Assembly: GCA_016788585.1 (NCBI GenBank)
Contig: JAEURP010000006.1
Location: 62,001-126,000 of the forward strand
DNA from: Chthonomonas sp.
Lineage (GTDB): Bacteria > Armatimonadota > Fimbriimonadia > Fimbriimonadales > Fimbriimonadaceae
Length of the DNA stretch: 64,000 bases
Reading direction: 5' to 3'
A program made the position numbers and the translations under genes. This document shows positions 14,859 through 62,148 of the stretch, piece by piece (the first letter of the stretch is position 1; every line of letters begins with the position of its first letter). Below the pieces are notes generated by a model that did no database searches, had not been told where the DNA came from, and saw only the letters and a list, made by a program, of their open reading frames with translations.

Positions 14859-16691
14859 ATGCCTCGACCACTTGTATTCGGAAATGGATTGTTCTTGATC
14901 CAACTGGACGCAAGGCACCGGATCCGAGACCTTTTCTTTCCTCACGTTGGGCAGTACAACCATTTAGCTGGTCATTCGATCCGAATGGGAGTCTGGCGAG
15001 ACGGCCAGTTCTCTTGGTGCGACTCGGATGAGTGGGAGATTGAGCAAGCCTACGAGAAGGGAACGATGGTCGGGCGGTCCCGCCTCCGTTGTGAAGGTAT
15101 GGCAATTGAGCTAGAGCTCGTCGAGCAGATGGCTCCGCGAGAGAGGATATTTCGACGTCAGATTACGCTTTTCAATCGAGGGCCAGCGGCAGAAATTCGA
15201 ATCTTCTTTTCGCACGATCTGCGCCTGAACGAATCGGATATTGGCGATACGGCGCTTTACCATCCGCAAAGCGGATCGATCGTTCACTACAAGAATAACA
15301 CCGCGATCGCGTTTAGGGGGAAATGGGGAGATAAAGGAATTTTTCAGTACCGTGCCTCCACAAGGGGCCAAGACCTTTGGGATGATGCTATCGACGGTGA
15401 ACTGAACATGAACCCAATCGAACAGGGTTCGGTGGGCTCCGTCATGAGCCTTCGATCGAATATAGGGGCGGGCCAGTCGAGCCTTGCCGAGTATTGGATT
15501 ACGGCACACCCATCGGTCGACGCTCTTCTTGCCCACCATTTTCCTTTTGAGATTGAGCCCGCGCGGGCCCGCGAGCCGCTTCAGAACGATAGCTATGACG
15601 AGATGCTACAGCGGTCTCTCGACGTGATCGCAAGCCAATGTGACCGCCATGGTGCCATTTTGGCTGCCAACGATAGCGACATTCTCGAAACCGCACGCGC
15701 AACGTACAGCTACCTTTGGATGCGCGATGGAGCCTTGGTTTCGTCGGTTCTCGACAAGACGCATTACTTAGACATCTCAACCAATTTCTTTGAGTTCTCA
15801 GCCAAGGTCACTAGTCGACCGCCGATGTTCCGGCACAAGTACAGCCCAGATGGATCTCTTGGCGCAAGTTGGCATCCCTACATTTTCAACGGCGAGCCGA
15901 TTACTCCTTTTCAGGAAGATTCGACCGCGCTTACGATTTGGGCCATGGCGAGCTATGCGGCAAGAGGGGTGAATCGAAATGCCATTGAGCTTTGGTATCG
16001 TTGGGTGCGTCAGTCATGCGACTTCATGGCGACCTATGTGGATGATTCTGGACTTCCCGAACCAAGTTGGGATCTCTGGGAAGAGAGGCGCGGTGTTCAC
16101 GCGTACACGGCCGCGACGGTGATTGCCGGTCTACGGGCGGGTGCAAGCCTAGCCAAGCAGCTTGGTAAAGAGGCGGACGGCATTCCTTGGCTCGCGGCCG
16201 CCGACCGAATGTCGCTTGCCATCAAGGAGCGCATGTGGAATGCGGAGCGCGGATGTTTCACTCGTATGATCGGCGATACCACCGCTGACTCAGCTACGCT
16301 GGCTTTTGGTTTGTTTGGTATCTTTCCTCCCGACGATCCGATGGTCGTACAGAATGCAAGCACCATCGAGGAGGTTCTTACCGTTCGAGGCGGGCTAGCG
16401 CGATACGAGGACGACTACTACTTCCGCCAACGCGGTGGCTATGCTGGTAATCCATGGGTAATCACGACCATGTGGCTCGCTCAAACCCGAATCCTTCAAG
16501 GCAATCTGGAGGCCGCTGAACGCGCGTTGCAATGGGTGCGCGAGCATCAGGCTCCAACGGGAATCTTGGCCGAGCAGTATCACCCGGACACCGGTGCGCC
16601 TTTGAGCGTAAGCCCGTTGACGTGGTCTCATGCTGAAGTCGTGCGAACCATACAGATGCTGAGGCATGCGCGAAGTACACTAGGGATATGA
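14859..16691 (+). CDS. Glycoside hydrolase family 15 protein (glucoamylase-like)
   Basis: The 610-aa protein has the bacterial GH15 layout: an N-terminal beta-sandwich (about 1-240) then an (alpha/alpha)6 barrel. Barrel signatures are TYSYLWMRDGALV near residue 285, EPSWDLWEERRGVHAYT near 405 with the proposed acid Glu, and GNPWVITTMWLAQ near 530; the second catalytic Glu would lie in the later ILAEQYHPDTGAP segment. Family members hydrolyse alpha-glucosides such as starch, dextrins or trehalose. No signal peptide is seen, so it is probably cytoplasmic and acts on glycogen, maltodextrin or trehalose. The next gene overlaps it by 4 bp (ATGA). Confidence 0.9.
   Translation: MPRPLVFGNGLFLIQLDARHRIRDLFFPHVGQYNHLAGHSIRMGVWRDGQFSWCDSDEWEIEQAYEKGTMVGRSRLRCEGMAIELELVEQMAPRERIFRRQITLFNRGPAAEIRIFFSHDLRLNESDIGDTALYHPQSGSIVHYKNNTAIAFRGKWGDKGIFQYRASTRGQDLWDDAIDGELNMNPIEQGSVGSVMSLRSNIGAGQSSLAEYWITAHPSVDALLAHHFPFEIEPARAREPLQNDSYDEMLQRSLDVIASQCDRHGAILAANDSDILETARATYSYLWMRDGALVSSVLDKTHYLDISTNFFEFSAKVTSRPPMFRHKYSPDGSLGASWHPYIFNGEPITPFQEDSTALTIWAMASYAARGVNRNAIELWYRWVRQSCDFMATYVDDSGLPEPSWDLWEERRGVHAYTAATVIAGLRAGASLAKQLGKEADGIPWLAAADRMSLAIKERMWNAERGCFTRMIGDTTADSATLAFGLFGIFPPDDPMVVQNASTIEEVLTVRGGLARYEDDYYFRQRGGYAGNPWVITTMWLAQTRILQGNLEAAERALQWVREHQAPTGILAEQYHPDTGAPLSVSPLTWSHAEVVRTIQMLRHARSTLGI
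16676..16681 (+). promoter_or_regulatory. Predicted -10 (TACACT) inside the end of GH15
   Basis: TACACT ends exactly 6 nt before the ATG at 16688. The following gene may have its own leaderless promoter in addition to ATGA coupling. Confidence 0.35.
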
Positions 16692-18817: not shown

Positions 18818-18897
18818 GACGCTTTAGAAATCGAGTTGGTGGCAATGAAAAGAGCCGCCAGCAGTGCACTTGCTGGCGACTCGCATTGACGAGCTTC

Positions 18898-19575
18898 TTA
18901 TGCCTTCTTTCGGCGTCGAAGCATTGCGGCTACACCCAATCCAAGGGCAGCCATTGTCGTCGGTTCGGGAACGACAAGATAGGTGCTGACTGGTTCCAAG
19001 ACCGTTTGTTGGTCGGGAGCCGAGATTTGGCCGGTTGACTGATTGAGCGGATCCCAAGCGCTGTCATTTCCGCCACCACCGGTTGTTGTCGCATCGAAGA
19101 AGAATAAGTCTCCGACGCTCATTCCAAGGCTGGCGAGCGAAAAGGTATACGAGACGCTCGGGCCAGAAATAAGCATACTGCTCGGACCAGTCGGCCCTCC
19201 CCAACTCATCCCATCGTACTTCCAAGCCTGCCCATTTCCGCCGCCGTCAACCCAACCACCAATGAAGGCGCTTGCGCCGCCATTAAGGCTGTAGGGTCGG
19301 TTCCAAGCGTTACCGCCAGTAGTTGGATCTCCTTGAACGCGAATGATCGCGTTTACCTTGATCCAATCTGGTGAAGTGATGGAAGGGCTGTTCGTCGTGA
19401 ACTTGAAGGTGATGTCGGAGGCCGTGTTCGTGATTTCAACACTCGCAAGGTCGACGTTTGGATTGCCATAGCCTGTCATAGGAGCATTGCAATCGCCCAG
19501 AGCGTCGGTGTAAACGACCGCCCATGCCGACGTAGCCATACTGCCCAACAAGGCAAAAGAAAGAATAGATTTCAT
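18898..19575 (-). CDS. PEP-CTERM secreted protein, paralogue of the dockerin-tailed neighbour
   Basis: A 225-aa exported protein with a signal peptide (residues 1-19, ending SAWA) and a PEP-CTERM tail: VPEPTTM, a hydrophobic helix and RRRKKA. PEP-CTERM proteins are recognised by exosortases and released to the surface or matrix. The body matches the first 200 residues of the gene at 19802-20929. Shared blocks are GDCNAPMT-x-YGNPNVDL, SP-x-WIK, IGGW-x-DG, DATTTGG/EATTTGG, AWDP and ISAPDQQT/ITAPDQQI. Function unknown; the fold looks like an extracellular beta-sandwich. The 5' region is about 80 nt from a TATAAAAT to the ATG and carries the shared palindrome. Confidence 0.88.
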   Translation of the reverse strand: MKSILSFALLGSMATSAWAVVYTDALGDCNAPMTGYGNPNVDLASVEITNTASDITFKFTTNSPSITSPDWIKVNAIIRVQGDPTTGGNAWNRPYSLNGGASAFIGGWVDGGGNGQAWKYDGMSWGGPTGPSSMLISGPSVSYTFSLASLGMSVGDLFFFDATTTGGGGNDSAWDPLNQSTGQISAPDQQTVLEPVSTYLVVPEPTTMAALGLGVAAMLRRRKKA

Positions 19576-19683
19576 TACTCTAGAGTCTCCAACTGACTGG
19601 GAGCTGCTGGGGACGTTTTTACCGCCCCCCGAAAGCTTTGGAGTAGCAGCATGCTTCCGCAGTCATATTCATTTTATAGTACT

Positions 19684-19701
19684 TGTGAATACGTATTCGC
19701 A
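19684..19701 (-). promoter_or_regulatory. 18-bp palindromic operator, site 1 (TGTGAATACGTATTCGCA)
   Basis: Eight of nine base pairs are symmetric around ACGT. Its centre is 117 bp upstream of the start at 19575, and a TATAAAAT lies just downstream on the minus strand, so the site overlaps the -35 region. A near-identical site precedes the paralogous gene. The form resembles LacI/GalR or CRP-type sites. Confidence 0.65.
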
Positions 19702-19748
19702 GTAAAAATACTGGGATTGATGATTCTCTTCGATCTTATGACGTAGTG

Positions 19749-19776
19749 AAAAGCCCCCTCGAACTTCGAGGGGGCC
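19749..19776 (-). terminator. Rho-independent terminator of the dockerin-tailed gene
   Basis: On the minus strand GCCCCCTCG and CGAGGGGGC pair around AAGTT and are followed by TTTT. It lies 26 bp after the stop at 19802. Confidence 0.85.
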
Positions 19777-19801
19777 AACTGCTTAGACTGCTAATCAGGA
19801 A

Positions 19802-20929
19802 TTAGCCATCAATGTTGCCGAAGTTGGCAATGACGATATCGATGTCAGCGGCATCAACCTCGCCCGAAGCATCAGCGTCGCTGTTGGGATTCCCAACGCC
19901 GCCTGGCCAGACATCGCCAAAGTTGGCAATCACCTGGTCGATGTCAGCAGCATCGACTTCGCCACTGGTATCCACGTCGCCGTTCTGCATGGCAACAGCG
20001 CCGATGGCTTGGTTCGCGCCAGTAAGGCTAACTGGAACAGTCTTCTGCAAGAACGATGAACCATCGAAAACGATCGATGCCGATACCGCACCGTAATCTG
20101 GAACATCGATGCTAAACCCTGCGTTTGCGGAAGTCGCAAGGATTGAACCAGTAGTAATCGCCGAGGTGCCCAGCATCACAGCATAACGAATCTCTCGCGA
20201 GTTGTTCATTACGACATCGTTGAGCTGCAAGTTGCCGGAGATTGTCTGATTGGGAACATTCAGTAGACAGGCGTAGGCAAGGTTGCCCGAAGTCGTAATC
20301 TGTTGATCAGGAGCGGTGATCTGATTCTGGAACATCGAAATAGGATCCCATGCACCATCATCATCATCGCCACCCGTCGTGGTCGCCTCGAAGTGGATCG
20401 AATCGCCGAGTTGCAAGCCCAGCGTCGACAGCAGGACCTGGTAGGTGGCCGTGTTACCACTCATCGTCGAGATCATTCCTGGCGTACCGAGCCAGGTTGC
20501 ACCTGCTGGAGATCCGAGACCAAAGTCAGTCCCATTCCAAGTTCGGGCTTCAAATCCGCCAAAAGCACCATCACACCAGCCACCAATCCAGCGGTTGGAA
20601 CCGCCTGCGATGTTGAACAAGCGTGGCCAACCTGTGGACGGTCCAGTGTTCACACCGAATCCTTGATCCGGGCCGCGAATTGCCATCACGCACTTAATCC
20701 AGCCTGGAGATTGAATATCTGGGCCAGCAGTTGTGAAAATGAGATTGAGTCGCGGGGCATTTCCATTGGCTGGGTCGAGATCAGTAAAAATCTCTAGGCC
20801 AAGGAGATCCACATTGGGATTGCCGTAGGTCGTCATCGGCGCGTTGCAGTCGCCGCTTACATCGCCAAACTTGACGGCCATCGCCGGAGCGACCGCACAA
20901 ACAAGCGCCATTGCTAAGAGTTGCTTCAT
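19802..20929 (-). CDS. Secreted protein with C-terminal dockerin-type repeat
   Basis: A 375-aa exported protein with a signal peptide (1-18, ending PAMA) and three parts. Residues about 20-210 are homologous to the PEP-CTERM neighbour. About 215-310 is a beta-rich domain ending DGSSFLQKTVPVSLTG. The tail has two EF-hand-like dockerin loops, DVDTSGEVDAAD and DADASGEVDAAD, each followed by a helix (IDQVIANFG, IDIVIANFG). Dockerins bind calcium and dock onto cohesins in cellulosomes, but in many phyla they occur without known cohesins. None is in this window. The same palindromic operator precedes it as precedes its paralogue. Confidence 0.88.
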   Translation of the reverse strand: MKQLLAMALVCAVAPAMAVKFGDVSGDCNAPMTTYGNPNVDLLGLEIFTDLDPANGNAPRLNLIFTTAGPDIQSPGWIKCVMAIRGPDQGFGVNTGPSTGWPRLFNIAGGSNRWIGGWCDGAFGGFEARTWNGTDFGLGSPAGATWLGTPGMISTMSGNTATYQVLLSTLGLQLGDSIHFEATTTGGDDDDGAWDPISMFQNQITAPDQQITTSGNLAYACLLNVPNQTISGNLQLNDVVMNNSREIRYAVMLGTSAITTGSILATSANAGFSIDVPDYGAVSASIVFDGSSFLQKTVPVSLTGANQAIGAVAMQNGDVDTSGEVDAADIDQVIANFGDVWPGGVGNPNSDADASGEVDAADIDIVIANFGNIDG

Positions 20930-21038: not shown

Positions 21039-21056
21039 TGTGAATACGTATACACA
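21039..21056 (-). promoter_or_regulatory. 18-bp palindromic operator, site 2 (TGTGAATACGTATACACA)
   Basis: Eight of nine base pairs are symmetric. Its centre is 118 bp upstream of the start at 20929, and a TATTAT hexamer follows on the minus strand. It matches site 1 at 15 of 18 positions, with the first 13 bases identical. Confidence 0.65.
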
Positions 21057-38155: not shown

Positions 38156-39088
38156 ATGAGGACTCTTGCCTTTCTGTCCGTCGCCCTTACCGCTGGCGCA
38201 AATGCCAGCTTCGACCTCATCCTCGTCGCCGACAACACTGGCTCCTTCACCGGCCCCGTCACCAGCAAGGTGCACCGCTATGATGGCGACAGTGGCGTCT
38301 ATCTCGGTTACTTTGATGCCGGCCTCAATCCTATCCAAGACCTTGCCGTCAATGGCGCCACAAACGAGGCCTTCGTCGCCACCATGAATGGCGTGAATGT
38401 CTACAACATCGGCACCGGAGCCCTCAAGAGGCAGATCGGTACGGGCAACACCGGTGCCCTCAAAATGCACAATGGCGAGCTTTACCGGACTACCGGCACC
38501 CAACTGTTTCGAGTCAACCAAACCACCGGAGCCAACACTCTCGTCAAGACTTGGACAAGCGCAATCAGCGACTTCGCATTCTCCGGCAATGGCAGCTACA
38601 TGCTGTACAACAGTCCATCCAAGCTTCTTGAAGGGTTCAACTCAAGCGGTGTTCTTGGAACTTCGTTTACCGCTACTGCCCTCTCCGCCTCCACAGGTCG
38701 CGTCTCATTCGATGGCGGTAACCCAAATTACTTCTATCTCATGGGCGATGCCCCCGCCCCAACAGCCGGCATCTACTACGGCACCGTGACGGCCGCCGGC
38801 ACCTATGCCCTTAACAACGCTAATTGGTCGAACACCTTCTTCCAAAGCTTTCTCGACATCGCCCCGTCGCACACCGGATTTTGGATGTATGGCAACACCG
38901 GCGGCACCAACGAGCGCTTCCTTGTTCGCATGAACTCCGGCATCGGAGCCGGGGGCGATCACTTCTTCAAGACACCGCAGGTCACGAACGCCGGGCAAAT
39001 CGCCGTCGTTCTTGCGCCTGAGCCGGGCACGTTTATCGCCGTCGGCGTAGGCGTCGCGGCTTTGCTCAAGCGAAGAAAGCGCCGCTAA
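38156..39088 (+). CDS. PEP-CTERM protein, LAPEPGTF type
   Basis: A 310-aa exported protein with a signal peptide (1-18, ending ANA) and the tail LAPEPGTFIAVGVGVAALL plus KRRKRR. The body is beta-rich and repetitive, with short units such as VHRYDGDSGVYLGYFD and QIGTGNTGALKMHNGELYR. This looks like a beta-propeller of NHL/SMP-30 type. It is a paralogue of the gene at 40065-41054, with which it shares the exact tail type and a similar N-terminal pattern (FDLILVAD / FELALVLQ). The ATG at 38156 fits both the signal peptide and the -10 spacing. A strong terminator follows. Confidence 0.85.
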   Translation: MRTLAFLSVALTAGANASFDLILVADNTGSFTGPVTSKVHRYDGDSGVYLGYFDAGLNPIQDLAVNGATNEAFVATMNGVNVYNIGTGALKRQIGTGNTGALKMHNGELYRTTGTQLFRVNQTTGANTLVKTWTSAISDFAFSGNGSYMLYNSPSKLLEGFNSSGVLGTSFTATALSASTGRVSFDGGNPNYFYLMGDAPAPTAGIYYGTVTAAGTYALNNANWSNTFFQSFLDIAPSHTGFWMYGNTGGTNERFLVRMNSGIGAGGDHFFKTPQVTNAGQIAVVLAPEPGTFIAVGVGVAALLKRRKRR

Positions 39089-40064: not shown

Positions 40065-41054
40065 ATGAAGCAGTTTGCCCTTTTTTGTGCCGTTAGCGCG
40101 TCGGCCAGTTCTTTTGCGTCGTTCGAGCTGGCCCTCGTATTGCAGACCTATACACCATCGAACGGACCGAATAGCCTGCACGTTACGCGTTGGGACCCGG
40201 CGAACCGCGTGAGCTTGGGTCAGTTCACGGTTTTCGATAATTCGACTACGGCCAACCTGGCCTTTAATACGTCGGCCCCCGGCACAGTGGACCTCATTCA
40301 ATCTCAGTTCAACACCTTGGTAGCGCGCCGCTATAACTACTCGACGGGGCTATTTGTTTCTGAATACAGCACGGGTGTGGCCATGAATTCACTTTCTAGC
40401 GGTCGATACGTGAGCAGCAACCTTTTGGTGGCGGGGAACTTTGGCGGGACGCACCAGGCCCGGCTTTATAGCCAAGGCGGTGGTTTGGTTCGGGCTTACA
40501 CGACGCCCGGCGGCACTACGCTTGCGGTGGACGCGATCACCGTGAGCAGCGGCGTGACCTTTGTTCTGACGCGGCAGGCGGGTACGGTTTCGGGTAACAA
40601 ATACACCTTGACGAGTCACGCCGCCGGCTCGGGGGCGATTGTTCAGAGCGTGGTGGTCGCCGACAACACGAGTGAGACCCTGCACTCCCTGGTCGCCACG
40701 GGCAACGCCATCGCGGTTGGCTCGGCCTACTTTGCTGATCGGCGCATCGTTCCTTACACTGGTACGACGATGTCGAGCGCGTTTGCCGTTGGCGGATATG
40801 TGACCGAGACCGCGACTTTGACGCAGGGGCATGGCGACTACATTTGGGGCATTGGCATCGACTCCGTCAACACGCGCATGTATTTCACTACGGCGCGCAT
40901 TGCCAATTTCTCGGGCAACTATTGGTCCACGAGCAGCACAAACTACGGCACGATTATTGACTCGGCCATGGTTCTAGCGCCCGAGCCGGGGACTTTCTTG
41001 GCGATTGGCGTCGGCGTGGCGGCGCTATTGAAGAGAAGAAGGAAGAGCCGCTAA
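40065..41054 (+). CDS. PEP-CTERM protein, LAPEPGTF type, second paralogue
   Basis: A 329-aa exported protein with a signal peptide (1-18, ending SFA) and the tail LAPEPGTFLAIGVGVAALL plus KRRRKSR. The body has many short Ser/Thr/Gly-rich beta strands and resembles its paralogue at 38156. The tails of the two are almost identical and differ from the VPEP-type tails of the other two PEP-CTERM proteins in this window. Function unknown. Confidence 0.85.
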   Translation: MKQFALFCAVSASASSFASFELALVLQTYTPSNGPNSLHVTRWDPANRVSLGQFTVFDNSTTANLAFNTSAPGTVDLIQSQFNTLVARRYNYSTGLFVSEYSTGVAMNSLSSGRYVSSNLLVAGNFGGTHQARLYSQGGGLVRAYTTPGGTTLAVDAITVSSGVTFVLTRQAGTVSGNKYTLTSHAAGSGAIVQSVVVADNTSETLHSLVATGNAIAVGSAYFADRRIVPYTGTTMSSAFAVGGYVTETATLTQGHGDYIWGIGIDSVNTRMYFTTARIANFSGNYWSTSSTNYGTIIDSAMVLAPEPGTFLAIGVGVAALLKRRRKSR

Positions 41055-41792: not shown

Positions 41793-42566
41793 ATGAAAAA
41801 TATTTCTTTGTTGGCCCTTTCCTTGGGCGTCTTGAGCGTGGCGAACGCAGCCACCTTTACCCTGACCGATGGTAACTCGGTAGTCAATGGTGACGACGCT
41901 ATTGGTCTCTACGATTGGTTCACCGATGGTACTGACCACCTTTACAATCAGGACTACTTCTGGCGCGTCGGCAACACGGCTGAGCAGCGACAGGGTGCGA
42001 TTGGCCCTGGTGTGATCACGCAGTTCGCTCCAAACATCGCAAACGTAAAGTTTACGGCGGCGGGCCTGTTCAGCATCGACATTACTTACACTCTGATCGG
42101 CGGCGCCAATGGTAGCGGCACATCCGACATCGGCGAAGTCGTGCGAATTCGCAATCTTACGAATCAGGCGTTGGACTTCCACCTGTTCGAGTACGATGAT
42201 TTCGATATTCTCGGCACGGCAGGCGGCGACACCGCGTTCTTCGATGGCAATATCGTGACGCAGTTCGAAATGCCGGTCGTCAGCATGGTCGGAACCGTTC
42301 CTACAGCTAACCGATGGCAGATTGGCCCATTCCCTGGCCTCCTCAACGACCTAAACGATGGCGTTGCCACAAACCTGACCAACGGTGTCACTCCTAGCGG
42401 CCCCGGCGACATGACCTTTGCATTCCAATGGGATCGAACCATTGCTGCTAACGGCAACTTCATCATGTCGAAGAATAAGCGCATCGAGACCGTACCAGAG
42501 CCAGCCACCATGGCAGCTCTTGGGCTTGGCCTCGCGGCGTTGGCTCGCCGACGAAGGAGCAAGTAA
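41793..42566 (+). CDS. PEP-CTERM protein, VPEP type
   Basis: A 257-aa exported protein: signal peptide (1-18, ending NAA), a beta-rich body (about 20-230) with LTDGNSVVNGDDAIGLYDW and FHLFEYDDFDILGT, and the tail VPEPATMAALGLGLAAL plus ARRRRSK. I do not recognise the body fold; the spacing of aromatic residues suggests a beta-sandwich. Unlike most genes here it has a real leader with GAGGAG 7 nt before the ATG. I chose the ATG at 41793 over the TTG at 41781 because of this sequence and the signal peptide. Confidence 0.85.
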   Translation: MKNISLLALSLGVLSVANAATFTLTDGNSVVNGDDAIGLYDWFTDGTDHLYNQDYFWRVGNTAEQRQGAIGPGVITQFAPNIANVKFTAAGLFSIDITYTLIGGANGSGTSDIGEVVRIRNLTNQALDFHLFEYDDFDILGTAGGDTAFFDGNIVTQFEMPVVSMVGTVPTANRWQIGPFPGLLNDLNDGVATNLTNGVTPSGPGDMTFAFQWDRTIAANGNFIMSKNKRIETVPEPATMAALGLGLAALARRRRSK

Positions 42567-55964: not shown

Positions 55965-57614
55965 TTAAATATCGTCTACGCCGCCGAAGTTGGCGATGAC
56001 GATATCGATGTCAGCCGCGTCGACTTCACCAGAGGCATCGGCATCCGATGGGATGTCGCTCGTCGAGGAGAAGTCAGCAATCACTTGGTCGATGTCAGCG
56101 GCATCTACTTCACCCGTGTTGTTCACGTCGCCGTTCTGCATCGTGGCCGTACCAATCGCTTGGTTAGAACCAGTCAGGTTCACAGCAACGATTCGCTTCA
56201 GGAACGAAGAACCATCCAGGATCAGCTGAGCTGAACCAGTCGCGGCACCAGCATCGATGGTAAACGCCGTGCTTGGAGAGTTGGCGTTAATCGTGCCGCT
56301 CGCGATCGTCGTTACACCCTGCTTCAGCTGATAGCTGATCGCTCGAGTGTAGCCGAACGAAGCAACCGTGTCACCAAGGGCCAACGTACCAGTAACGTTT
56401 TGACTCGGTGCCAGCCTATAGATGGTGAACGGAACGTCGATATTGACCGAACCATCGAGGACGTTGGTAAAGGTCATCGCAACTGCGTCATATTGTCGAG
56501 CATTGCCAGCAAAGGTGGTGTTTGGCGTCGGGAATCCCGGATCCATGATAGGAGGCGTGAAGGAAACACCCGTTAACGAGTATTCAACGTAGTACGAACC
56601 CGGAGCCAAGTGGACATTCGGGAACGATGCACGAACATTCATGACCGGACGATTGGTGAGCAAGATAGAGGCCGCATTTTGAACACGGAATACGCCTGAC
56701 CAACCCGTAGAGGACATTACTGTGCTCGAAGCCACTACATTGGCACCAAGCCCTGCCGGGTCAGCATCCCAAATCTTGACAATGACACCAGTTGCCGTTG
56801 ACGTTGTGGATGAACCCGTGAGATAGCCATAACCGCTAATCTGCGCAACATCCCAACCTGGACCAGCCGGAACCGTAAAGTCGTCGATCAGCGACAAAGA
56901 AGCTGCAGAGCTTACGCCGGTGCCAAAAAGAGTACCTGTGGTCGCGATGACGCTAGCATTGGCACCGCCAGCGCCCTGACCGATCGCGTTAGCCGGGTTG
57001 CCATTATCGTAGAGCACCGCGTGACCAGCGATTGGGTTTGGCCAAGCTGGCGGAGGAGGAGGTGCAACGTAGGCGTTCATCTTAAACACGACGTTGGCGC
57101 CAGTCGCATCCGGTCCTGCAACGTCGTCATCGTAGCAATCGTATGCTTCCAAGCTCCATGTGGAACCAATTGGGATTGCAGATTGCACGGGCAAGGTAGC
57201 GGCACTGTTCCAAGTATAAGGGCCGCTGGCGCCAAGGGACCGGATTGAGTTTGCTGGAACACTCACTGTGGTGAATGTGGCACCAGTAGCTAGGCGAAAG
57301 TGGGTGATCAGCGTAGGAAAAGCAGAGTTCACAAGCTTGAAGCCAGGTTCCTCAGCATAAGTGCCCGCAAATACTGACGTAAGATCGGCACTGATCACGG
57401 TGACGTCAGCACCTAGTGAATAGGCGGCTGTTTCGGCGCCGCTCGTGTGCAAGGAGTTCGTTCCTCCGCTGGCGGCACCAGTGTTGGTCAAGTTGCCCGG
57501 ATTGGAAGAGAAGGTCGCCGAGCCGACATTGATTGTGATTTGCCCGTATGCCGATGATGCGACGACCATTAGGGCCACAACACCCACAGCGGGGGAGAGA
57601 TTTCTTTTAATCAT
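55965..57614 (-). CDS. Large secreted protein with C-terminal dockerin repeat
   Basis: A 549-aa exported protein: signal peptide (1-24, ending SSAYG), a beta-rich body (about 25-420) with an AAPPPPPAWPNP-like linker region near residue 195, and a C-terminal 150 residues homologous to the dockerin-tailed protein at 19802. The shared part is DGSSFLKRIVAVNLTGSNQAIG-like, then MQNGDVNNTGEVDAADID and SDADASGEVDAADIDIVI (two EF-hand loops). I chose the ATG at 57614 for its signal peptide; a TTG at 57638 is in frame. A TATAAAAT lies about 45 nt upstream. No palindromic operator is visible here. Confidence 0.85.
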   Translation of the reverse strand: MIKRNLSPAVGVVALMVVASSAYGQITINVGSATFSSNPGNLTNTGAASGGTNSLHTSGAETAAYSLGADVTVISADLTSVFAGTYAEEPGFKLVNSAFPTLITHFRLATGATFTTVSVPANSIRSLGASGPYTWNSAATLPVQSAIPIGSTWSLEAYDCYDDDVAGPDATGANVVFKMNAYVAPPPPPAWPNPIAGHAVLYDNGNPANAIGQGAGGANASVIATTGTLFGTGVSSAASLSLIDDFTVPAGPGWDVAQISGYGYLTGSSTTSTATGVIVKIWDADPAGLGANVVASSTVMSSTGWSGVFRVQNAASILLTNRPVMNVRASFPNVHLAPGSYYVEYSLTGVSFTPPIMDPGFPTPNTTFAGNARQYDAVAMTFTNVLDGSVNIDVPFTIYRLAPSQNVTGTLALGDTVASFGYTRAISYQLKQGVTTIASGTINANSPSTAFTIDAGAATGSAQLILDGSSFLKRIVAVNLTGSNQAIGTATMQNGDVNNTGEVDAADIDQVIADFSSTSDIPSDADASGEVDAADIDIVIANFGGVDDI

Positions 57615-57721
57615 GATTGGATATCCATCAAGGCGCAATGGCCTCTCGCTAACATTTTATAGGAATAACTCAGAGCCTGATCAGGAAAAATTGCTTTTTT
57701 GCACTTTGAGGCAAAACACGG

Positions 57722-58966: not shown

Positions 58967-61111
58967 TCAATCCTCGAAGGGATCGATCTCGACCGGTGGG
59001 CCGAGGGATCGTCCGGATAATACAGCCTCGACTTCCATCGGGCTCACCAAGACTTCTCTTGGGCGCGCACCAACCCTTGGCCCAACGATGCCGCGCGACT
59101 CCATCAGGTCGAGTAAACGCGAGGCTCTTTGAAAGCCAATGCTGAACTTACGCTGGATCATGCTCGTACTGGCTTCTTGGCGATCAACCACGAAGTGCAC
59201 GACCTCTTGCCACAATTCGTCGTTCGATTCATCGGCAATATCTCTCTCGCGCTCTTTGACCGCTACCGCGATCGGATCAAGAACGTAATGGGGAGCTTCT
59301 TGCTCGCGCCAGAACTCGCAAACGGCTTCAATCTCTTTCTCACCAACATAGCAGCCTTGCATACGCGTCGGCTTATTGGCGTCAATCGGCATGAAGAGCA
59401 TATCGCCCTTGCCCACCAACCTTTCTGCACCTGCGCCATCGAGAATCGTTCTTGAGTCGATCTGAGATGACACCGCAAATGCCATCCGGCTTGGAATGTT
59501 AGCTTTGATTGTCCCCGTAATGACGTCGACGCTAGGTCTCTGCGTGGCGATCACGAGGTGAATACCCACGGCGCGAGCCAATTGGGCCAACCGCACAATA
59601 CTGGTCTCAACTTCCGCCGCGGCTTGGATCATCAGGTCTGCGAGCTCGTCGATGATGACCACGATGTAAGGCATCTTGTCTTGGAAACTCGCTTGGGCAT
59701 TGTAACCATCGATGTTCCGAACACCGACATCGCTTAGTCGGTCGTAGCGCACATCCATCTCGCGCCAAACGGCTCTCAGCACGCCCGGGGCTTCAGAAAT
59801 GTCCTTTACGACCGGGCACATAAGGTGTGGAATTCCGTCAAAGAGGGTGAGCTCGACTCGCTTTGGATCAATCATCACCATCCTCACGTCCTTGGGCGTG
59901 TTTCGAAGAAGTAATGAAGTGATAATGCTCGCGAGGCCGATCGACTTACCGCTGTTGGTGGCACCGCCAATCAGCAGGTGAGGCATTTTTGTAAGGTCGG
60001 TGTAACGGTTATTGCCGCTCACGTCCTGACCAAGTGCCACGATCAGGCGACTTGGGTTTTCAATGAACTCCTTCGTTTCGCACACTTCGCGCATCGCCAC
60101 CATCGTGGGTTGATTATTGGGCACCTCCACGCCGACGGCTGACTTACCCGGGATCGGAGCTTCCACCCTAACGTGCGCCGCTGCTAGGTTCATCGCGATG
60201 TTGTCGCCAAGGTTGGTGATTCGCCGAACATTCACGCCCGGTCCAAGTTGGATTTCGTAGCGGGTGATCGTGGGGCCAGTGGCCACTTCAGTAACATTCG
60301 CTTCGATACCGAATTCTTCAAGCGTCCGCTCAAGGGTTTCGATGTTGGCTTGCATTTCCTGCGCGCTTCTGCGATGCTTGGTCGGAGGCGCGTTCAGAAG
60401 CGTGAGGGGCGGAAGTTTGTATCCTTCCTTGTCTTTAGGTGTCGGCTGAATCGTGAACGGGTTTTCAGCCTGATGGATAATCGTGGGTTTCTTGAACGCG
60501 GGTCGCGGCTTCTCTTCCACTTCAGCTTCAGGCTCGGGCATTCGCACGGCGGCCCGGGTCGCTTCTGGCATCGACACTCGTTGCGGCACCTTCTTCTTGC
60601 GCGAACTTGCCAAACTCGCCATGATCATGTGGAGGGGCGCATTGACGCACAGGATAACACCCACCATTCCAAGCGCGCCCAAACCGACCGGCTTTGCCTG
60701 GCCCAGCAGGGCCTCAAAGGCCCAACCGATCACCGCGCCGACATAACCACCTGAATGCCGGGCCGCTTCGGGATCGAAGTAATCGCCGCGCAATTGGCTG
60801 GAGGCCATCGACCCGACGAGGGTCAGGAACAGACAAGTCACACCCCAACTGAGGCGACTGATTTCGAATTGGCGGCGCCCCAAAATAATGGCAAACCCCA
60901 GGACGCCGAGAGCTGCGGGCACAGCCCATGCTCCGCGACCAAACAGAGATGAAAACACATTGCCTAGGGCATTCCCCACCAGTCCGGCCGTACCTAGGCC
61001 CAAGCCGATCGCCATGATGATCGCCGCGGCGATCATGACGATCCCAATGACATCGGCCGAGCGATGCGAGGGCTCGGTCTTCTTTACAGTACGTTTGGCG
61101 CTTGTTGCCAT
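58967..61111 (-). CDS. ftsK: DNA translocase FtsK/SpoIIIE
   Basis: A 714-aa translocase that moves chromosome ends through the division septum. Four N-terminal membrane helices (about 20-160) are followed by a short linker. The motor begins with NIETLERTLEEFGIEANV, has Walker A GGATNSGKSIGLA near residue 380, Walker B YIVVIIDELADLM and the QRPSVDVITG motif. The C-terminal gamma winged helix reads TSMIQRKFSIGFQRASRLLD. It ends just before gltA, with a 50-bp gap, and is divergent from the GYF-domain gene. Confidence 0.96.
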   Translation of the reverse strand: MATSAKRTVKKTEPSHRSADVIGIVMIAAAIIMAIGLGLGTAGLVGNALGNVFSSLFGRGAWAVPAALGVLGFAIILGRRQFEISRLSWGVTCLFLTLVGSMASSQLRGDYFDPEAARHSGGYVGAVIGWAFEALLGQAKPVGLGALGMVGVILCVNAPLHMIMASLASSRKKKVPQRVSMPEATRAAVRMPEPEAEVEEKPRPAFKKPTIIHQAENPFTIQPTPKDKEGYKLPPLTLLNAPPTKHRRSAQEMQANIETLERTLEEFGIEANVTEVATGPTITRYEIQLGPGVNVRRITNLGDNIAMNLAAAHVRVEAPIPGKSAVGVEVPNNQPTMVAMREVCETKEFIENPSRLIVALGQDVSGNNRYTDLTKMPHLLIGGATNSGKSIGLASIITSLLLRNTPKDVRMVMIDPKRVELTLFDGIPHLMCPVVKDISEAPGVLRAVWREMDVRYDRLSDVGVRNIDGYNAQASFQDKMPYIVVIIDELADLMIQAAAEVETSIVRLAQLARAVGIHLVIATQRPSVDVITGTIKANIPSRMAFAVSSQIDSRTILDGAGAERLVGKGDMLFMPIDANKPTRMQGCYVGEKEIEAVCEFWREQEAPHYVLDPIAVAVKERERDIADESNDELWQEVVHFVVDRQEASTSMIQRKFSIGFQRASRLLDLMESRGIVGPRVGARPREVLVSPMEVEAVLSGRSLGPPVEIDPFED

Positions 61112-61242
61112 CCTAGCTCTTCTTCAAAGACTTGATTTAGCGTTTCCTCGTTGCAATCCATTGCTTGGGGTGGGCTATTCAGTTTAGTATACACATTGCG
61201 CTCCCGAAACCAAGAGGCGGCTCAGCTAGAATATTTGAGCGC

Positions 61243-61731
61243 ATGAGCTATTTCGTCATCGACCCAACTTCAGGCCAAAAGTACGGGCCAGCTGACACAG
61301 ACACCCTCAATGTCTGGATAAGGGAAGGACGGGTGACGCCGGAGACTCAACTCGAAGATGCAATAAGTGGCTCCACAATTGGGGCTCGCGCGGTCGCAGG
61401 GCTTACGTTTGATAGCGTCGTCGCCGAATCCCCGTCCCACCCTCAGTTCAAGGAGCCCCCAAAGCCTAGCCGCCCTTCCGAAATCCGCACTCCAACCCAA
61501 GTTCCAGGGCAACAAGACGCCACCAACGCATGGATCTATTTCGCGCTCGGATTCGCCGTCTGTAGCGTAATTTTCTTGCCGATGTCGATTATTGCCGCGA
61601 ACAAGGCTGCGATGGTGGGCAACAACACTGCCTACTGGGCAAAGGTGTTGTCCGTCGTTTTGATCGTGCTAAATGTGCTCGCACTCGTGGTCCTGGTCAT
61701 GATTCTTGGGGCCGCAGCGAACTCGGCCTGA
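61243..61731 (+). CDS. GYF_2-domain membrane protein
   Basis: A 162-aa protein. Residues 1-55 match the GYF_2 domain of bacteria: SYFVIDPTSGQKYGPADTDTL then VWIREGRVTPETQLED. A Pro-rich linker (about 68-90) leads to two transmembrane helices (about 95-117 and 130-155). GYF domains bind proline-rich peptides; targets are unknown. I chose the ATG at 61243 with a TAGAAT 10 nt upstream, so the leader would be short. Tail to tail with the next gene, with no gap. Confidence 0.78.
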   Translation: MSYFVIDPTSGQKYGPADTDTLNVWIREGRVTPETQLEDAISGSTIGARAVAGLTFDSVVAESPSHPQFKEPPKPSRPSEIRTPTQVPGQQDATNAWIYFALGFAVCSVIFLPMSIIAANKAAMVGNNTAYWAKVLSVVLIVLNVLALVVLVMILGAAANSA

Positions 61732-62148
61732 TCAATCTCGGCAGATAATGTCAGTGGCCCCCATGAGAAAGGCCTCAACTTCTCCATAGGGATCATCGGT
61801 CATCATGACGGCGCACAAGGCCGTGTGCTTCTCGGCGACGAGATGGCGCGCCCGGTTGATTACATGCAGATTGTCGGAATAAACGACTTCTGCGGGAACC
61901 CGCTCTGCATACAGCAGTAAGTCCTCTGCGGTCTCCGCCACTACCACCTGATAACCCGCCGTGCGAAGCTCTAGCGCCAGATTCGAGCGAAGAACTTTGT
62001 TTCGCACACAAAGGAAGGCGACATGATCGTCCCCAAACCGCTGGCCATCGGTCGTTGGAGGTGCGCTTGGAGGGCGAGTTCGAAAGCCTCCCAACAACGG
62101 TTGGGGAACCATATCAAAGTTAATCGAGCAAGTGACCTGAGCAAACAT
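61732..62148 (-). CDS. Degenerate receiver-domain-like protein
   Basis: A 138-aa protein. After a 40-residue Pro-rich N-terminus, residues about 45-138 follow the response-regulator fold: VAFLCVRNKVLRSNLALEL, AGYQVVVAETAEDLL, VYSDN, and FLMGATDIICRD at the place of the usual G-A-x-x-x-x-x-K-P. The acidic pair after strand 1 and the switch Lys are missing, so it is probably not phosphorylated. The start is uncertain: ATG at 62148 or a TTG at 62211. The 64 bp upstream are AT-rich and contain a TATAGT. Confidence 0.6.
   Translation of the reverse strand: MFAQVTCSINFDMVPQPLLGGFRTRPPSAPPTTDGQRFGDDHVAFLCVRNKVLRSNLALELRTAGYQVVVAETAEDLLLYAERVPAEVVYSDNLHVINRARHLVAEKHTALCAVMMTDDPYGEVEAFLMGATDIICRD

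Follow-up and report, generated by a model that had tools for sequence, protein, structure and literature searches.

Paralogous exported proteins with PEP-CTERM and dockerin-like tails in a predicted alpha-glucan regulon of Armatimonadota

Introduction

Exosortase sorting of PEP-CTERM proteins is established, and dockerin-like tails are found in many bacteria without cellulosomes, in which their role is, to our knowledge, an open question. In a Chthonomonas genome (family Fimbriimonadaceae) of the Armatimonadota, a phylum with few cultured members, two adjacent genes, here called A and B, raise the question of why one exported domain ends in a PEP-CTERM signal in one protein and in a beta domain followed by dockerin-like repeats in the other. 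A preliminary description of the locus had proposed that one ancestral domain was given two ways of attachment or release under one operator, and that the two tails may serve related surface roles. We analyzed the locus in the window, a stretch of 64,000 nucleotides (contig JAEURP010000006.1, positions 62,001 to 126,000), and compared it with the rest of its genome and with 85 genomes of the family.

Results

Genes A and B encode one homologous exported domain

The two genes and the elements next to them are as follows.

18898..19575, minus strand: gene A, 225 aa, with a signal peptide, a CBM74/glucodextranase-C-like domain (residues ~20-196) and PEP-CTERM
19802..20929, minus strand: gene B, 375 aa, with a signal peptide, an N domain of the gene A type, a beta domain and dockerin-like repeats
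20306..20875, minus strand: N domain of gene B (residues ~19-208), homologous to that of gene A
~19753..19775, minus strand: terminator-like inverted repeat with T's behind it, 3' of gene B (read from the sequence; absent from the scanner output)
18852..18882, minus strand: terminator-like hairpin after gene A (12-bp stem, then TTTT)

Both open reading frames were recovered exactly at these positions, and the proteins are 38% identical over 250 aa (BLASTP, E = 1e-38), with 46% identity between the mature domains in a MAFFT alignment. The common region spans ~175 residues. The N-terminal domains are thus significantly similar, and the earlier claim of adjacent genes with one shared exported domain holds. 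Since the inverted repeat and its T's lie between gene B and gene A, the two genes look like separate transcription units, as judged from the DNA alone. A sigma-70 scan found no promoter, and nothing resembling gene B was found in plasmid records.

The two proteins end in different tails

18904..18972, minus strand: PEP-CTERM of gene A (residues 202-224)
19988..20305, minus strand: beta domain of gene B (residues ~209-314; modeled; common to other dockerin proteins of the genome)
19805..19981, minus strand: two dockerin-like repeats of gene B (residues 317-375)

The C-terminus of gene A scored above the curated cut-offs of PF07589 (28.6 against 20.7 bits) and TIGR02595 (26.2 against 16 bits). 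The genome has a single exosortase gene (PF09721, E 8e-51; TIGR02602, 124 bits against a cut-off of 105.6), and, by what is established for PEP-CTERM proteins, gene A would be sorted by it. The tail of gene B scored 20.9 bits for PF00404, slightly below the cut-off of 22.9, which was passed by related tails, such as further copies in the same genome (for example contig C18, position 268127; 37.2 bits) and those at loci L155, L164, and L169. These scores bear out the assignment of a PEP-CTERM end to A, and the end of B is a beta domain plus dockerin-like repeats. No NCBIfam model accounted for the dockerin tails. A match of the beta domain to the Sputnik capsid scored below the cut-off and was dropped.

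The operators mark a predicted alpha-glucan regulon

19684..19701, no strand: LacI-type operator upstream of gene A, TGTGAATACGTATTCGCA
21039..21056, no strand: LacI-type operator upstream of gene B, TGTGAATACGTATACACA

These are the two operator matches in the window, against 0.02 expected by chance, and their centers lie 117-118 bp 5' of the start codons of A and B. The proposal of one operator needs to be modified accordingly: both genes carry the same palindrome, but in two copies, one per gene. An even palindrome with CG at its center is the usual form of a site for LacI-family regulators (PMC4052901). In the whole genome, the 18-mer recurs with up to 3 mismatches at one further place, at a MalEF-MalG-like importer.

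Within the family, GTGAATACGTATTCAC was found with up to 2 mismatches in 65 of the 85 genomes, whereas a reversed control pattern was found in 3 of the 85. Among the sites listed, which are a sample taken mostly from draft assemblies with ORF starts judged by eye, the operator repeatedly precedes the LacI regulator's own gene. Besides sugar-binding-protein/permease fusions (sugar-ABC importers) and an MFS transporter, the other genes headed by it among these sites encode alpha-glucan phosphorylase, with DUF3417 and Phosphorylase domains, GH13 together with CBM48, and a GH15-like protein that is secreted. Small PEP-CTERM proteins from several families also follow it, and one of them has a pullulanase X25 domain over the cut-off. 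The genome of A and B encodes a single close relative of the LacI regulator (contig C24; 55% identical; PF00356), with the core GAATACGTATTC upstream and a GH13/CBM48 gene immediately behind; the best NCBIfam relatives of this GH13 enzyme are maltodextrin glucosidase and cyclomaltodextrinase. The regulator itself did not reach the cut-off of any named LacI subfamily in NCBIfam. This gene content indicates that the operator marks a predicted LacI-controlled alpha-glucan (starch) regulon, and, going by the regulated genes, its effector would be maltose or maltodextrin.

Several further observations concern the operator and its surroundings. The exact GAATACGTATTC core occurs within the gene of a secreted GH13 protein, ~230 bp into the coding sequence (L105, position 1501; G000, C19:4234-4245), where it may be a roadblock site or chance, and upstream of a 165-aa ORF (L104, position 1501; G000, C16:281614-281625). 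At L093 (3664-6108), a sugar-binding protein and a MalF-like permease are joined in one 814-aa chain, and operons in other genera of the family likewise begin with such a fusion (L156, L165, L170). Another PEP-CTERM family, which by eye is unlike the other binders, has the same operator in two genera (L151, 2735-3511; L163, 1689-2453). At 14859-16691 in the window, three genes from the A/B pair, lies a GH15-type glucosidase gene with no obvious signal peptide and without an operator of the A/B type; it occupies the same place in two relatives (L098, L099).

The modeled shared domain resembles carbohydrate-binding folds

The N domain had no sequence match in Pfam, NCBIfam, or the PDB; the sole PDB-sequence match of the family profile, Titin, was judged to be chance. 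The gene A domain was modeled from 9 sequences (pLDDT 66.7, pTM 0.73) and gene B separately (pLDDT 64.6), both with middling confidence. Foldseek alone placed antibody chains on top, with none at E < 0.001, and VIA re-ranking raised carbohydrate-binding folds. For the gene A model, the best match was glucodextranase (1ug9) in its C-terminal part (Z 12.3, 164 residues). Next came CBM74 from Sas6 of R. bromii, a starch-binding module (Z 10.6), then a Bacteroides protein that putatively binds carbohydrate (Z 9.7) and CBM9 (Z 9.4); unrelated antibody chains reached Z 7.4 at most. The gene B model matched 1ug9 at Z 12.5 and the Sas6 CBM74 at Z 12.2-12.3. The fold alone is no proof of starch binding, because it is common also to enzyme subunits that are not starch binders (2ivf_C and 7b04_C). 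Taken together, the modeled fold and the regulon suggest that A and B most likely bind starch or maltodextrin.

The dockerin-like tail of B is derived

The domain is present in 13 of the 85 family genomes. Outside the genus, 10 homologues occur in 10 genomes of five genera, one per genome, and all 10 end in PEP-CTERM, whereas the tandem A/B pair is found in only three genomes, all of the same genus as the window. Another genome of this genus (G039, 99% complete) is without both genes. Each of the 16 family homologues, from six genera, has the operator with 0-3 mismatches in the 300 bp upstream of it; in a control of 200 shuffles per upstream region, an equal match arose only once, for one gene. 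In the tree, A and B form sister clades with moderate support (82/73), and the branch of B is long. Contigs were scanned with a 3-row alignment, which worked, a 16-row alignment being too diverse. A homologue from beyond the family, on a Phycisphaera contig, ends in VPAPG...RRRR and is without the operator.

Because all 10 homologues in other genera are PEP-CTERM-tailed, the beta plus dockerin tail of B is the derived one: a PEP-CTERM gene of the regulon was duplicated in the genus, and one copy switched its tail. This survey of relatives for either tail, as suggested with the preliminary description, and the tandem pair uphold the proposal of one ancestral domain with two tails. On a Chthonomonas contig (L102, 4252-5944), a PEP-CTERM homologue lies opposite a divergent dockerin-tailed gene, with the operator in the intergenic region between them.

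Tail exchange recurs in other families

In the genome of A and B, 27 PEP-CTERM and 71 dockerin ORFs were collected by regular expression, a collection that is possibly incomplete, and were compared after removal of the tails and the beta domain. Three mixed PEP-CTERM/dockerin pairs with a common N part were collected, against 42 dockerin-dockerin pairs. They include A/B itself (E 6e-31). The second pair consists of neighbors on contig C2 of this genome (G000; L005, L030), with a dockerin gene at 59217-60659 and a PEP-CTERM gene, which is the upstream one, at 60795-61751 (44%, E 8e-67). The third pair is on contig C15 (37%, E 8e-25). No operator of the A/B type was found at the C2 and C15 pairs.

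In genus g6, three genomes have a second family of the LacI regulon with a PEP-CTERM end; its orthologues in one genome of the A/B genus and two of genus g29 end in beta plus dockerin. Over ~300 residues, the two forms share 36-44% identity (E 2e-32 to 6e-66), up to the point where the tails start. This family, DOMON-like in appearance (L067), was considered as a relative of the A/B domain, to which profile comparison detected no relation. The sequence comparisons thus show tail exchange in at least four protein families, two of them within one regulon. Since the exchange recurs in further pairs and in the second regulon family, related roles of the two tails become plausible, as the preliminary description had supposed, although no Pfam cohesin partner was found in the 85 genomes.

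The beta domain and dockerin repeats form one module

The window holds further proteins with either tail.

55965-57638, minus strand: further beta plus dockerin protein
38768-39082, 40950-41045, and 42486-42557, plus strand: three further PEP-CTERM ORFs

The dockerin repeat occurs in ~80 copies in this genome. In 15 other dockerin ORFs, the stretch that precedes the repeat is matched by the beta domain of B (E 1.5e-21 to 6.8e-6), so that beta plus dockerin is one module of ~165 residues. Its model matched C. thermocellum X-module-dockerin chains only loosely (Z 7.0-7.2, rmsd 6-7 A), a level that chance could reach. Five genera of the family have 13 to 67 dockerin-repeat matches, and the repeats are rare in the others. 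The Pfam cohesin profile PF00963, which gave a match in a control genome and could miss a diverged cohesin, had no match at E 0.01 in any of the 85 genomes, and a cellulosome reading was set aside on this ground.

Discussion

We consider it probable, with fair confidence, that A and B are paralogues that bind glycans at the cell surface, belong to an alpha-glucan regulon, and carry two kinds of tail. A LacI-family repressor, encoded beside a GH13 maltodextrin-degrading enzyme, would bind sites of the GTGAATACGTATTCAC type ahead of its own gene, A, B, and the MalEFG-like importer, and an alpha-glucan breakdown product would release it from them. A and B are both exported, and their glucodextranase-C/CBM74-like domain would keep starch or maltodextrins close to the cell, where secreted amylases would cut the held glucans and the importer would take the products in. 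A retains the ancestral PEP-CTERM, through which the exosortase would process the protein and sort it to the envelope. B, a tandem duplicate within the genus, had its PEP-CTERM swapped for the common beta plus dockerin module of the genus. From the tail exchanges we infer that this module most likely holds B at the surface or in the matrix, through a calcium-stabilized contact whose partner is no recognizable cohesin.

A broader and more tentative extension is that beta plus dockerin in these Armatimonadota is a surface-retention or sorting tail equivalent in function to PEP-CTERM, with a non-cohesin partner, and that five genera shifted much of their exported protein set to it, one tail at a time; we regard this as possible but doubtful.

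Division of labor between the two proteins is somewhat unlikely as an alternative. A would be bound to the cell via PEP-CTERM and B released as a diffusible or matrix starch binder, with beta plus dockerin merely stabilizing the C-terminus or self-associating. Such a role would agree with the lack of cohesin matches in the 85 genomes and with the long branch of B, and the retention of A and B as neighbors in three genomes of the genus suggests that they are non-redundant. The between-genus exchange in the second regulon family, in which no second copy was seen under the operator, fits replacement better than a division of tasks. It is unlikely that the tail of B is a true dockerin, docking to a cohesin too diverged for Pfam in an amylosome-like starch-degrading complex: the ~80 copies and the resemblance to X-module-dockerin chains speak for it, but that resemblance is of a grade attainable by chance, and PF00963, effective in the control genome, failed throughout the family.

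Shuffling without functional meaning appears quite improbable. Both tails are very common, as the 27 and 71 collected ORFs illustrate, and could have been fused by chance after duplication, in which case the domain need not be a starch binder; the mixed pairs are far fewer than the dockerin-dockerin pairs, and two of the three are without an operator of the A/B type. Against this, the operator has been retained upstream of the domain across six genera, and the exchange is seen in two unrelated families of one regulon.

The tail exchange suggests that the job of the dockerin-like tail is similar to that of a known surface-sorting signal. The natural exchanges, in which one domain under one operator type carries either tail, provide matched pairs for asking whether the dockerin-like module anchors to the surface. 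The analysis also predicts that Armatimonadota have a Sus-like surface system for binding starch whose components are PEP-CTERM proteins. Among the few papers listed by a literature search on PEP-CTERM, exosortase and starch, none dealt with such a system, and a search on dockerin with PEP-CTERM returned nothing, a weak negative given the partial journal coverage.

Among known systems, type I dockerins and X-module-dockerins of cellulosomes and amylosomes resemble B in having two calcium-loop-like C-terminal repeats behind a beta module, with a loose fold match. They differ in that the 85 family genomes have no Pfam cohesin, and in that the many carriers here are mostly non-enzymes by Pfam where tested. 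The CBM74 of Sas6, the C-terminal part of glucodextranase, and CBM9 share with the A/B domain the modeled fold (Z 9.4-12.5) and the tie to alpha-glucan use, whereas sequence identity is just 7-18% and the A/B domain has no enzyme on its chain. As in Sus-type starch use and the LacI-family MalR regulons, surface binders, amylases, a maltodextrin importer, and phosphorylase would stand under one LacI-type site, an even palindrome with a central CG (PMC4052901). In contrast to those systems, the binders here are tailed by PEP-CTERM or beta plus dockerin rather than lipoprotein anchors, and the regulator scores too low for any named NCBIfam LacI subfamily. Finally, gene A shares with known PEP-CTERM/exosortase sorting the VPEP motif, the hydrophobic stretch, and the basic end, in a genome with one exosortase, whereas the PEP-CTERM proteins described here belong to a predicted LacI-controlled alpha-glucan regulon and have dockerin-tailed homologues.
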